Shown: piece by piece, positions 1,672-5,837 of the stretch
Layout of the letters: each line of letters starts with the position of its first letter
Position numbering within the stretch: the first letter of the stretch is position 1
Source of the DNA: Leptolyngbya sp. FACHB-36
GTDB lineage: Bacteria; Cyanobacteriota; Cyanobacteriia; Leptolyngbyales; Leptolyngbyaceae
Reading direction: 5' to 3'
NCBI RefSeq assembly: GCF_014695955.1
Contig: NZ_JACJPG010000257.1
Coordinates: 1-36,059 of the forward strand
DNA length: 36,059 nucleotides
Notes under the pieces: model-generated
Databases searched by the model: none
Told to the model about the DNA's origin: nothing
The model's input: the letters and a program-made list of their open reading frames with translations, nothing else
Translations under genes and position numbers: made by a program

Positions 1672-4560
1672 CTACTTCAAGGCTTGTAGCGATCGCCAGT
1701 CCTTAATTGATTTTTCGCTCCAGAGCCAATTTTGTGACAGTGCGTCGGGCGCAAAGGCAACTGGATCGTCGGTCATCACCTTCTGGCGCAGTCGGGTTGC
1801 CTCGCTCAGCAGCATTGCTCGACGGCTAGGAGTTTGATTCGCGGCAGATTTTGTCATTGTCAGGGCAATGCCTGCATATGCCGTTAGAGCATCGACGGGT
1901 GCGGGCGTTGTGGCACGGCCTGCCCCGTTTGGCGCCGCCCCTTGCTCACCCAGCAGCTGCAGCGCTCGAAACCAAGCGCGACCCGCTCGATCGATCTCGC
2001 CTTCTTCATAGTAGGCAAAGCCCAGCGCGTTTTGAACCAGTGGGTTGGGCTGCCGCTTCGCTGACGTTTCCCAGAATCGTCGGGCGTCTTGAGCCGTGTA
2101 GTCCCGATTACCCGTTTTTGCCGATTGCCACGCCGCTCGCCCCATCCAGAAATTAAGCGTTGGGTCGTCTGGCTGCTTGCCTAGGCTCGGCGTCAGGGCG
2201 GCGATCGCCTGCGTTAGAGCACCCCGCTGTAGCAGCGCCTCTACGGCTGGCCGAGCGGCAGGAATATTGCCTTTGTTGAGCTGCTCAGCCGCTAGGTTTG
2301 CCACAACTCCTGTGCTAACCTGCCGCAGATCGCCTTGGTTGCCTGCGGCATCGGGAGATGGTCCAGAGAACCGGACCTCGATCGCCGGACGAGTTAGCTG
2401 ATTGTAAGCCACCCAGCCACCGAGCAGCAGCAGCGCCGCGCCGATCGTTCCGGCTCCTATCCATCGCAGCGGCAGCTGTCTCAGGCCACGCCAGTGCACC
2501 GATCGGCGCGGCGGTTTTGGTGTCTTAACATCCGCCGCCTGCGCGATTATTGGTGTCGGAGCAATCGTTCCAGTACGGGAGGGTGTACTGTCTCCCTGTT
2601 TGTGCATCGCTCTGCCCAAATTATGATAAGCATCCGTCAAACTGGGATCTAGCTGGATTGCTCGGTTAAAGGCATGAATCGCTGAACTGAGGTTGCCTTG
2701 CTGATAAAGCGCCAGTCCCAGGCTGTTGTGCGCCTCAGCAGCTTGAGGGTCAAGCTGCAAGGCTTGATGGTAGACCTCGATCGCTTCTGACACGTACCCC
2801 TGATCAGCCAGCGCTAGCCCTAGCCGATGGTAGGCAGTGGCATCGTGAGGATTGCGCTGGATTGCCTGATTGCAGACGGCGATCGCCTCAGTCAGTTTGC
2901 CTGCATCTGCCAGCATTTGCTCTAGATCTGAGGACATGCCAGCCCCACCGTTAGCGACGGCGATCGCAGAGGCTTCGGCATTAGAGACAGGACGCGTTGG
3001 GGGAGTTGTGGGTACCAGTGGTGGACTGTAGCGAGGATTCTCCGCCAGGATTGGATAGCTGGGTCGGGCATCGTCCCGATCTGGTAGCAAATCTTCCCCC
3101 GGTGGTGCAGGCAGTGGACGTTCGACAACTGGGGTGGATCGAGTCAGCTGATCGATCATCTGCGCGATCGTGGCGGCATCGGTTTCGTAGTCAGGATCGG
3201 CTTCCGGATCGTCAGCGTCAAACGGCTCGCCGTAATCGTCATCAAGGTAGTCGTCAAAATCTGCCTCAATAAAGGGGTCATCCAGCGCGGCAGACCGTGC
3301 AGACAGTATGGCGTCATCCTCTACCTCATCGATCAGCAGGTTCTCTGGTCGATCGCTCAAGTCCAGATTCAATGACTGCAAGTAGCCGTCGAATTCCGGA
3401 TGTAGATACAGCACGGGTAGCGCCCAATAGAGCTGGCGAGACGTGTAGGACGCGATCAGCCCTTGCCGAGCGCGACTGAGGCTGAGGTCGATTGGATACG
3501 CCTGCTTCAAATTGCGGTAGAACAGGCGGCTGAGGTTAAGCGCAACGTCATCTGGAATCCGCTCCGCCATGGCTAGCACCGCTGGAATGCCCCGCTTTAC
3601 CAGCGCCTCGACTAGATTACTTTGCCCATCAGCGGGATCAGCAGTCGCCGTGTAGCCACCCCGACAGGAATTAAATACGGCGACGCGAATGCCATTGTTG
3701 ACTAACAGTCCAGCCAGATCATCGCCACTAAGCGCTTCGGTCAAGCCCGTTTTGCGGCTGACCAGATACAAGCTGCCGCCGGATGTTCCCAAATCGCTGT
3801 GGCCAGCGTAGTGAAAGACTTGATAATGATTGTGTTCCAGCGCCTGCGCTAGTTGTTCTCGTCCGGGCTGCTCAAGAATCGTCAGTTCCAGGTTGATCAC
3901 TTGCCCGCCACCGCTGCCGCTGCGGCGGAAGGACTGCAATTCGTCTTGCAGGTGCTGGGCTTCCTGCTTTAGCGCCAGTGCCGCTTGGTCAGTGGGAGCC
4001 GCTAACACCATGAGAATGCGAATCGGCTGGTCAGAAGCCTGTGGTGAATTCAGCGCCCCCAGCGAGGACAGCACGGATACGCCGGAGTGGTAGCGAGAGA
4101 ATAAAACATCTGTGCCGGTGGCAATGAGTCGATCGCCCCCGTGGAGTACTTCCCAGGGCAAGCGCGGCAGTCGGGTATCTTTGAGTCCCAAGCGCAACCT
4201 CAGGCGCTCCTGTCGGTTCTGAGCAATGCCCCGTGCCATAATCCAGCTCTCTCGCATGGTTCCCTGGAACAGCGAATTGTAGAGCTGTCGCCCCAGTGCG
4301 CCCAAGCCTGCCGATCGCGGATCGATCGTGCCAGAGGTTCCTGATAAAGCTTCTAATTCTGGTAAAGAATGGAGTGGATCGCCCCGCAGTACGCCCATTA
4401 GCGGATCGTTCATCAGCACGCTTGCCTGCGTCAGCCAGTCGTCGATGGGCCATGTCACCTGCTCTTCTGCCAGCGGCACGCCCGGTGCAACTCGCTCTGT
4501 TCTAACGAGGTACTCATTGCCTCGAATTGGAGTCACCGACACGTGAAATTCCTGGGTCAC
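1672..4560 (-). CDS. hetF: HetF-like CHAT-domain protease with TPRs and a TM segment
   Basis: A 962-aa protein read from a GTG at 4560 with a good GGAGGG Shine-Dalgarno just upstream. A CHAT (caspase/gingipain-like) domain covers about residues 120-395, with the candidate dyad His254 (in HYAGHSD) and Cys299 (in FNSCRGG). Then come an acidic Asp/Glu linker (about 405-465), a Pro-rich stretch, about three TPRs (about 545-655), a hydrophobic membrane segment (about 702-720) and a C-terminal TPR-like helical region. In Nostoc, HetF is a CHAT/CHF-fold protein needed for heterocyst patterning and normal cell division and works with PatA. The hetF call rests on domain order and on the NsiR1-like repeats directly upstream, an arrangement known for hetF. 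The alternative is another cyanobacterial TPR-CHAT protein. Both dyad residues are present, so it is probably active. Confidence 0.8.
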   Translation of the reverse strand: MTQEFHVSVTPIRGNEYLVRTERVAPGVPLAEEQVTWPIDDWLTQASVLMNDPLMGVLRGDPLHSLPELEALSGTSGTIDPRSAGLGALGRQLYNSLFQGTMRESWIMARGIAQNRQERLRLRLGLKDTRLPRLPWEVLHGGDRLIATGTDVLFSRYHSGVSVLSSLGALNSPQASDQPIRILMVLAAPTDQAALALKQEAQHLQDELQSFRRSGSGGGQVINLELTILEQPGREQLAQALEHNHYQVFHYAGHSDLGTSGGSLYLVSRKTGLTEALSGDDLAGLLVNNGIRVAVFNSCRGGYTATADPADGQSNLVEALVKRGIPAVLAMAERIPDDVALNLSRLFYRNLKQAYPIDLSLSRARQGLIASYTSRQLYWALPVLYLHPEFDGYLQSLNLDLSDRPENLLIDEVEDDAILSARSAALDDPFIEADFDDYLDDDYGEPFDADDPEADPDYETDAATIAQMIDQLTRSTPVVERPLPAPPGEDLLPDRDDARPSYPILAENPRYSPPLVPTTPPTRPVSNAEASAIAVANGGAGMSSDLEQMLADAGKLTEAIAVCNQAIQRNPHDATAYHRLGLALADQGYVSEAIEVYHQALQLDPQAAEAHNSLGLALYQQGNLSSAIHAFNRAIQLDPSLTDAYHNLGRAMHKQGDSTPSRTGTIAPTPIIAQAADVKTPKPPRRSVHWRGLRQLPLRWIGAGTIGAALLLLGGWVAYNQLTRPAIEVRFSGPSPDAAGNQGDLRQVSTGVVANLAAEQLNKGNIPAARPAVEALLQRGALTQAIAALTPSLGKQPDDPTLNFWMGRAAWQSAKTGNRDYTAQDARRFWETSAKRQPNPLVQNALGFAYYEEGEIDRAGRAWFRALQLLGEQGAAPNGAGRATTPAPVDALTAYAGIALTMTKSAANQTPSRRAMLLSEATRLRQKVMTDDPVAFAPDALSQNWLWSEKSIKDWRSLQALK

Positions 4561-4917
4561 AGCTACCCTCCAAGACTACCTACACCCTCTGCCCTATGGT
4601 AATTGACCAGGCTTCGCTACGCTTAACATAAACAACGAAGCAGCTTATTCATCCGGCAGAAAATTGACTAGTTCACCACGCACAGCCCGCCTGCCCGTCC
4701 TACTCCTCAGAGCGCCAGCCGCCATCGTTGGATCAAGTCGGGGTCTTTTGCGTTCAGCGTTCAATGTGCAGTTCTCAAAAAGCGTCGGTAGATGCAACGA
4801 GGAAGCGTACCTAACTCTGTCAAGTCTTTATCGATCATGGCACGCGCTACTGGCGTAGACGGCTGAGTGTCCAAAAAGTTACGGAAACTTCAAACAAAAT
4901 GCCCCAAACTTCAGCGA
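4561..4917. other. hetF leader region with possible decayed repeat fragments
   Basis: About 357 bp without a credible gene between the hetF start and the first intact repeat. A 10-base word shared with the repeats, GGTAGATGCA, occurs at 4787-4796, preceded by an A-run as in the intact units. A TTGCGTTCAG word at 4748-4757 resembles the repeat hairpin loop. These are out of phase with the 119-bp period, so they could be deleted remnants of older copies or chance. The region should hold the hetF promoter and 5' UTR on the minus strand, but no confident promoter boxes can be named. Confidence 0.4.
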
Positions 4918-4932
4918 TTTTCCAAGGAGCCG

Positions 4933-4938
4933 TCCGGA
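4933..4938 (+). promoter_or_regulatory. TCCGGA (DIF-class) box of repeat unit 1
   Basis: TCCGGA lies about 33 bases before the inferred small-RNA start, where a -35 element would sit. In Nostoc sp. PCC 7120 the DIF promoter class, active in differentiating cells, is defined by TCCGGA near -35, and NsiR1 is a prototype. That it works the same way here is inference. Confidence 0.6.
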
Positions 4939-4965
4939 TATCCGCCTCTTATTCTAGAAAACGCT

Positions 4966-5027
4966 AAGTGGTAGATGCACCCTAATTGGCTCCCCGACTC
5001 TTGCGTTGAGTTGGGGAGTTTCTTTTT
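4966..5027 (+). ncRNA. nsiR1: NsiR1-like small RNA, copy 1
   Basis: Inferred transcript of about 60 nt. The 5' end is estimated from the TCCGGA box (about 4966 to 4971) and the 3' end from a rho-independent terminator. The hairpin is 4990-5000 paired with 5008-5018 (11 bp with one G-U and a 7-nt loop), followed by a T-rich tract at 5019-5026. The T-tract shows transcription on the plus strand, opposite to hetF, so the RNA would be complementary to any hetF transcript starting upstream of the repeat. Known NsiR1 RNAs are of this size, are encoded in tandem repeats beside hetF and modulate heterocyst differentiation. The exact 5' end is not visible in sequence. Confidence 0.7.
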
Positions 5028-5051
5028 GAGGTGCCCTTTTCCAAAAAGCTG

Positions 5052-5057
5052 TCCGGA
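5052..5057 (+). promoter_or_regulatory. TCCGGA (DIF-class) box of repeat unit 2
   Basis: Second copy of the TCCGGA element, exactly 119 bp after the first. It is retained although six flanking positions differ between the two units, which hints that the hexamer is under constraint. Confidence 0.6.
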
Positions 5058-5084
5058 TATCTGCCTCTTACTCCAGAAAACGCT

Positions 5085-5146
5085 AAGTGGTAGATGCACC
5101 CTAATTGGCTCCCCGACTCTTGCGTTGAGTTGGGGAGTTTCTTTTT
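5085..5146 (+). ncRNA. nsiR1: NsiR1-like small RNA, copy 2
   Basis: Identical in sequence to copy 1 across the predicted RNA. The terminator hairpin is at 5109-5137, followed by a T-rich tract ending near 5145. It stops about 20 bp before the stop codon of the convergent TPR gene (5166), so the terminator may also protect that gene from antisense transcription. The 5' end is estimated from the TCCGGA box and not observed. Confidence 0.7.
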
Positions 5147-5165
5147 GAGGTGCCGCGTAAGAGCA

Positions 5166-5837
5166 TCAGCGACTTGCTTGCAGCACTTGTTTGGCAGTGC
5201 GAATTTGCTCAGAACTAAATCCCGCTTCGTTAAGGTAGTCAAGAAATCCAGCATCTCCGTAGCGACCATCCACGCCCAACGCCTGCTGGTAGGCTTGTTG
5301 CGCGGCAGGACGATCGCCGCGTCCCCAGTGCGCGATTGCTAGCGCCACAAACGGATGAGGATTACTCGGCTCTAGTCTTGCGGCTTCGGTTGCGGTCGCG
5401 ATCGCCCACGCATACTGCTGCAACCGCTCACATGCCAGACTCAAGTTGTAGTGGGCAATTTCGTTATTTGGCTTGAGGTACGCTGCCCAACTATGTGTGG
5501 TAACGGCAGCGATGAGCTGTCCACCGACCAGGTAGACAATCCCTAATGCATTCAAGGTAGGGACATCAAATGGATTCAGGGAGAGCGACTGCTGCAACAC
5601 GTCTGCCGCAGCGGTAGTCTGTCCGGCTCGATGCAGCGTCCAACCCAACAGCACTCGACCCGAAAGGTTGTTCGGTTCTAGGTCTACGGATTGCTTCAGT
5701 GCAGCGATCGCCTCTGGGTAGCGTCCCTGTTCTCGGTAGCTCAGTCCTCGCTGGCGGTAGTCGCTAGCAGATTGAGCAAATGCAGGCGTGGCAAGCAGCA
5801 GGGAGATCGCCAGCGATCTCAGCAACATGAAATTCAT
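5166..5837 (-). CDS. Secreted/periplasmic TPR-repeat protein
   Basis: A 223-aa protein beginning MNFMLLRSLA with a clear Sec signal peptide (hydrophobic core about 9-17, predicted cleavage after Ala21 in AFA|QS). The rest is tetratricopeptide repeats: one around residues 25-58 (YRQRGLSYREQGRYPEAIAA), others around 59-92, about 93-126, 127-160 and 161-195, then a short C-terminal helix. TPRs are protein-binding scaffolds, so a periplasmic assembly role is plausible but no partner is visible. An alternative start at the internal ATG (5828) keeps the signal peptide. It is transcribed toward the NsiR1-like repeats and hetF on the same strand; read-through into hetF would cross the small-RNA repeats in antisense. 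Confidence 0.8.
   Translation of the reverse strand: MNFMLLRSLAISLLLATPAFAQSASDYRQRGLSYREQGRYPEAIAALKQSVDLEPNNLSGRVLLGWTLHRAGQTTAAADVLQQSLSLNPFDVPTLNALGIVYLVGGQLIAAVTTHSWAAYLKPNNEIAHYNLSLACERLQQYAWAIATATEAARLEPSNPHPFVALAIAHWGRGDRPAAQQAYQQALGVDGRYGDAGFLDYLNEAGFSSEQIRTAKQVLQASR

Follow-up and report, generated by a model that had tools for sequence, protein, structure and literature searches.

Beside the cell-division gene hetF in Leptolyngbya sp. FACHB-36, on the opposite strand, lies a pair of short direct repeats that an initial annotation described as an NsiR1-like array of small RNAs antisense to the hetF leader. This raises the question of whether the repeats are indeed NsiR1 genes, whether they oppose the hetF leader as in Nostoc, and what such an RNA would be doing in this host. 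We use the term "window" for the whole stretch of DNA that was analysed, with its length of 36,059 nucleotides.

Tandem NsiR1 units and their neighbours

The repeats and the adjoining genes comprise the following features:

4918-5035, + strand: NsiR1 unit 1, consisting of promoter, RNA and terminator (direct repeat, base comparison)
4933-4938, + strand: TCCGGA (DIF1) box of unit 1, intact
4969-5027, + strand: NsiR1 RNA body 1, with the invariant 5' core UGGUAGAUGCACCCU and a terminator hairpin (Rfam, folding)
5037-5154, + strand: NsiR1 unit 2, 95% identical to unit 1 (direct repeat, base comparison)
5052-5057, + strand: TCCGGA (DIF1) box of unit 2, intact
5088-5146, + strand: NsiR1 RNA body 2, with the same sequence as body 1 (Rfam, base comparison)
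1672-4560, - strand: hetF, 962 amino acids with a GTG start (VTQEFHVSVTP), a CHAT protease domain and TPRs (NCBIfam, Pfam CHAT, tree)
5166-5837, - strand: open reading frame of a TPR protein, convergent with NsiR1 and upstream of hetF

Repeat search and base-by-base comparison agree on two direct repeats with a spacing of 119, as had been claimed from inspection. The units differ at six positions (4926, 4927, 4931, 4943, 4952 and 4955), and the flanking base 5036 differs too, while the 80 bases from 4956 to 5035 are without any change between units. All six differences do fall outside the TCCGGA box and the RNA body. In both units the box begins 36 nt ahead of the RNA core, a spacing of the DIF1 type. 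In the predicted fold of each unit (-24.1 kcal/mol), a 5' mini-hairpin precedes a terminator hairpin, after which comes a run of T. The units are read on the + strand, with terminators facing away from hetF as originally described, and their RNAs would start 409 and 528 nt upstream of the GTG of hetF.

A search of the whole window with Rfam's cmscan matched the NsiR1 family (RF02399) at 4969-5025 and 5088-5144, with 45.3 bits each (E 5.9e-6) against a gathering score of 39 bits. Because the window units exactly match UGGUAGAUGCACCCU, the sequence-specific 5' part of the model, these scores are not owed to a generic terminator alone. The element is an additional member of the known family NsiR1, and the resemblance first suggested by eye is thus a matter of family membership.

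The identity of the neighbouring gene also deserved attention. Its product's best NCBIfam match is CellDiv_HetF at 860 bits, which is under the model's cut-off of 1200 bits. Since that cut-off is reached by none of 58 relatives, it looks to have been set for a narrower group. In a tree, the window protein falls within a 12-member HetF clade (support 100/100) that is separate from nine CHAT paralogues and takes in proteins encoded beside the NsiR1 arrays of Nodularia and other Nostocaceae. The gene's initial assignment as hetF therefore stands. A protein-based search for the locus in genome contigs returned solely a TPR match, from a myxobacterium.

Position relative to the hetF leader

The Nostoc NsiR1.1 is an antisense RNA to the 5' UTR of hetF, whose translation it inhibits (PMC9045159), and the hetF transcription start site lies at -256 in Nostoc/Anabaena (PMC8406250). 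By analogy, the hetF-proximal NsiR1 of the window might oppose a long 5' leader of hetF as an antisense RNA and block HetF translation in cis. NsiR1 is close to and divergent from hetF in the 26 genomes that we examined, with its 5' end 182-968 nt upstream (409 in the window). Moreover, a hetF transcript that begins upstream of 5146, or that results from read-through of the TPR gene, would cover both copies.

A motif comparison nevertheless points to a hetF promoter that lies closer to the gene:

4834-4842, - strand: candidate extended -10 of hetF, TGCCATGAT in the hetF sense

This candidate lies between NsiR1 and hetF, at a distance of about 275 nt from the hetF start. Counting the window, about 15 genomes of the family have in this interval an extended -10 that reads, in the hetF sense, TGNCATGAT or nearly so. 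Across the 26 hetF loci compared, the motif suggests a conserved promoter at this place in most members of the family, although some genomes do not show it. From the motif's position, the hetF transcription start is predicted near 4827. The leader would then be about 265 nt long, near the 256 nt of Nostoc, whereas NsiR1 starts 409 nt upstream. The situation in the Nostocaceae is different. At most loci there, 172-198 nt separate the start of the proximal copy, nsiR1.1, from hetF, so that this copy falls inside the hetF leader when set against the Anabaena start site; in most genomes it has a distinct body, CACCTTGATCTTCAA.

Given a candidate hetF promoter between NsiR1 and hetF here and nsiR1.1 within the leader there, the antisense arrangement looks specific to Nostocaceae. 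In the window, NsiR1 is read away from hetF and probably lies beyond the 5' end of the hetF leader, and the initial description of the array as antisense to that leader is probably wrong, in view of the conserved -10. A cis-antisense role would also leave unexplained why copies distant from hetF have the same 5' core. On these grounds, we consider it unlikely that NsiR1 acts on hetF in cis in this lineage.

A dispersed family with an invariant 5' end

The host genome contains three further members of the family, of which the one on contig 458 scores over the cut-off and those on contigs 487 and 389 are weaker. Genomes of the family mostly have one hetF-proximal copy along with copies elsewhere, and we therefore regard the doubling in the window as probably a local, recent duplication. 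The same norm speaks against viewing the locus as a short, two-copy version of the Nostoc array.

Among about 130 copies, nearly all have TCCGGA or a one-base variant starting 34-36 nt before the core. In 30 NsiR1 sequences from many families, 5' positions 2-15 are invariant. The 5' core is UGGUAGAUGCACCCUGAU in most genomes and UGGUAGAUGCACCCUAAU in the window. The terminator stem is variable, with some compensatory changes in which both sides of pairs are altered. This pattern fits a 5' end that would serve as a shared seed. Together with the TCCGGA at about -35 in dispersed copies, the invariant 5' end suggests an RNA that acts in trans and is controlled by HetR/HetZ.

Several copies that are distant from hetF recur in the same place. 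Three genomes of the window's family and one of another family (f1, f18) have NsiR1 convergent with lgt, 50-73 nt after it, and two Nostocaceae (f32) genomes also have it after lgt, outside their hetF array (L032:5688, L085:3499, L088:3768, L090:3429, L148 and L149). The gene names lgt, gatB and argJ, here and below, were read from the sequence by eye, not by family search. Such recurrence argues against a mobile repeat. One might instead take the repeats for terminator-like elements, mobile or in decay, that have no RNA function, as they are short, tandem and multi-copy, and many one-base variants of the box occur. In that case it would be hard to account for a 5' core that is invariant over many families, a box at a fixed spacing, positions shared by distant genomes, and an 80-base 3' part that is identical between units when all changes fall outside it. 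This explanation is therefore highly improbable.

Two additional observations concern individual copies. NsiR1 copies at L091:3443 and L093:3790, in two genera of the window's family, are downstream of a gene for an RfaE-like sugar kinase. In addition, several hetF-proximal copies (L041, L042, L046, L047, L051, L058 and L062) retain CATGCCTAGTG in the terminator loop, which is not present in the copies read from elsewhere.

If NsiR1 acts in trans, its targets are of interest. Nostoc NsiR1 lowers HetF and the HetP-like protein Alr3234 (PMC9045159). The predicted hetF leader in the window contains one relevant stretch:

4787-4796, + strand: third GGTAGATGCA, a 10-nt NsiR1-like stretch

The hetF mRNA could pair in trans with the NsiR1 5' end at this site, in a predicted duplex of -19.9 kcal/mol. 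However, 8.5% of shuffled leaders match that energy, and the stretch is not conserved across genomes; a site like it is absent from the hetF leader of most others. Given this lack of conservation and the weak complementarity, we rejected the hetF leader as a conserved target of NsiR1 in general. A scan of 10 genomes with GGGTGCATCTACC, allowing at most one mismatch, revealed no clear recurrent target. Its matches were NsiR1 copies, a sibling small RNA and scattered chance matches in coding regions.

The sibling RNA starts with AGUAGAUGCACCCUGAUG, a 5' core that it has in common with NsiR1, and has its own terminator. Its promoter is conserved and different (GGGGTGACACCCC ... GGCATACTGTG), without TCCGGA. 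In the host genome (G000), the sibling is located at 1538-1593 of contig 487 (L038, L080), flanked by genes that we read as gatB and argJ; other occurrences are at L048:713 and in L130-L132, L134 and L136-L140. A strict pattern detects it in 61 of 390 cyanobacterial genomes sampled from the class, and all 61 are NsiR1-positive.

Distribution, HetR and the origin of NsiR1

RF02399 scores over its cut-off in 50 of the 58 relatives and in 192 of the 390 genomes of the class, and in none of 14 control genomes. HetR was found in 188 of the 390. Both are present in 186 genomes, NsiR1 only in 6, HetR only in 2 and neither in 196; as these genomes are related and not independent, a Fisher p-value overstates the association and is only indicative. 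Thus, NsiR1 is not a heterocyst speciality and tracks HetR almost one to one. The six NsiR1-positive genomes in which neither the N- nor the C-terminal domain of HetR was found (G040, G054, G239, G329, G366 and G282) imply that HetR is not strictly required.

These six genomes suit an alternative in which NsiR1 is a general nitrogen-stress RNA, some factor distinct from HetR and HetZ recognises its DIF1-like box, and the link to HetR reflects only shared filamentous ancestry. The sibling RNA, with the same 5' core under an unrelated promoter, suits it as well. We consider this alternative rather improbable, since the presence or absence of NsiR1 coincides with that of HetR in 382 of 390 genomes and the spacing of TCCGGA matches that of HetZ-dependent promoters (PMC7377430).

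The heterocystous family f32, which includes Nodularia spumigena CCY9414, has both NsiR1 and nifK in all 31 sampled genomes. For that strain, 12 tandem repeats upstream of hetF have been reported in the literature. Outside f32 there are 161 of the 192 NsiR1-positive genomes, and 94 of these 161 are without nifK; within the window's family, 26 of 38 NsiR1-positive genomes are without it. Inspection of the host genome for hetR and nif genes, as the initial annotation had recommended, detected HetR as a fragment at a contig edge and did not detect nifK, an absence that is weak on its own with a genome 82% complete. The host is probably non-heterocystous.

The conjecture that an RNA-hetF circuit predates or outlives heterocysts is therefore supported as regards the neighbourhood, which exists without heterocysts, but not as regards antisense geometry at hetF. 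As NsiR1 is present in almost every sampled cyanobacterium that has HetR, it is probably older than heterocysts.

Comparison with known systems helps to place these results. NsiR1 of Nostoc (Anabaena) sp. PCC 7120 resembles that of the window in its 5' core, mini-hairpin, terminator, TCCGGA promoter and divergent location upstream of hetF. Nostoc, however, is a heterocyst former in which NsiR1 comes in 12 tandem copies, including one within the hetF leader, whereas the window has two tandem copies, probably outside the leader, with others on further contigs of a probable non-heterocystous host. The 57-nt RNA162 of Limnospira indica PCC 8005 (PMC8400943) is likewise NsiR1-like and comes from a non-heterocystous organism with hetR. 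The available portion of that report describes its expression under radiation, and does not discuss hetF linkage, promoter or distribution. An NsiR1-like RNA outside heterocyst formers is consequently not wholly new. Similarly, patX-hetR in Leptolyngbya sp. BL0902, which is non-heterocystous and nif-less, has a DIF1 promoter of the HetR pathway, but this promoter drives a protein operon, and small RNAs are not mentioned there (PMC11298460). Within the NsiR1 literature, which we covered in part, we found no earlier report of the near one-to-one link to HetR, the non-antisense geometry, the dispersed conserved copies or the sibling RNA.

Our proposal takes as its starting point what is directly observed, namely sequence membership, conservation, promoter spacing, co-distribution with HetR, and geometry. 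We think it reasonably probable that NsiR1 is a dispersed, trans-acting family under DIF1 promoters that is ancestral to HetR-bearing cyanobacteria and has undergone a local tandem duplication here. The two units would be tandem NsiR1 genes that were duplicated locally from one member of the genome's dispersed family. Each would produce an RNA of approximately 59 nt from its own TCCGGA (DIF1) promoter, with the intrinsic terminator presumably forming the 3' end. DIF1 promoters in Anabaena depend on HetZ (PMC7377430), and by analogy with Nostoc the promoters in this host may be switched by the HetR-HetZ pathway. The invariant 5' core would pair in trans with target mRNAs. The units would point away from hetF, on the far side of its conserved promoter, making cis-antisense action on the leader improbable in this lineage. 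Heterocyst formers would have inherited this ancestral system; in them, the hetF-linked copy would have been amplified to long arrays, and one copy would have been relocated to the leader of hetF. For the broader claim, that NsiR1 is an ancestral, near-obligate and trans-acting output of HetR-HetZ, accompanied by a sibling RNA and later co-opted, with cis-antisense at hetF as a later addition in Nostocaceae, we see the balance as even.

The function of hetR in Leptolyngbya BL0902, and in other cyanobacteria in which heterocysts are never formed, has been described as a mystery (PMC11298460). Strains of Leptolyngbya BL0902 deleted for hetR and for patX are available. With its invariant 5' core, its DIF1 promoters and a distribution that is nearly that of HetR, NsiR1 is a concrete candidate for an output of HetR in such organisms, and its targets could be sought in tractable non-heterocystous strains. 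If our proposal is true, NsiR1 would not be a heterocyst-specific RNA but an older regulator at the level of the filament, co-opted by heterocyst formers.
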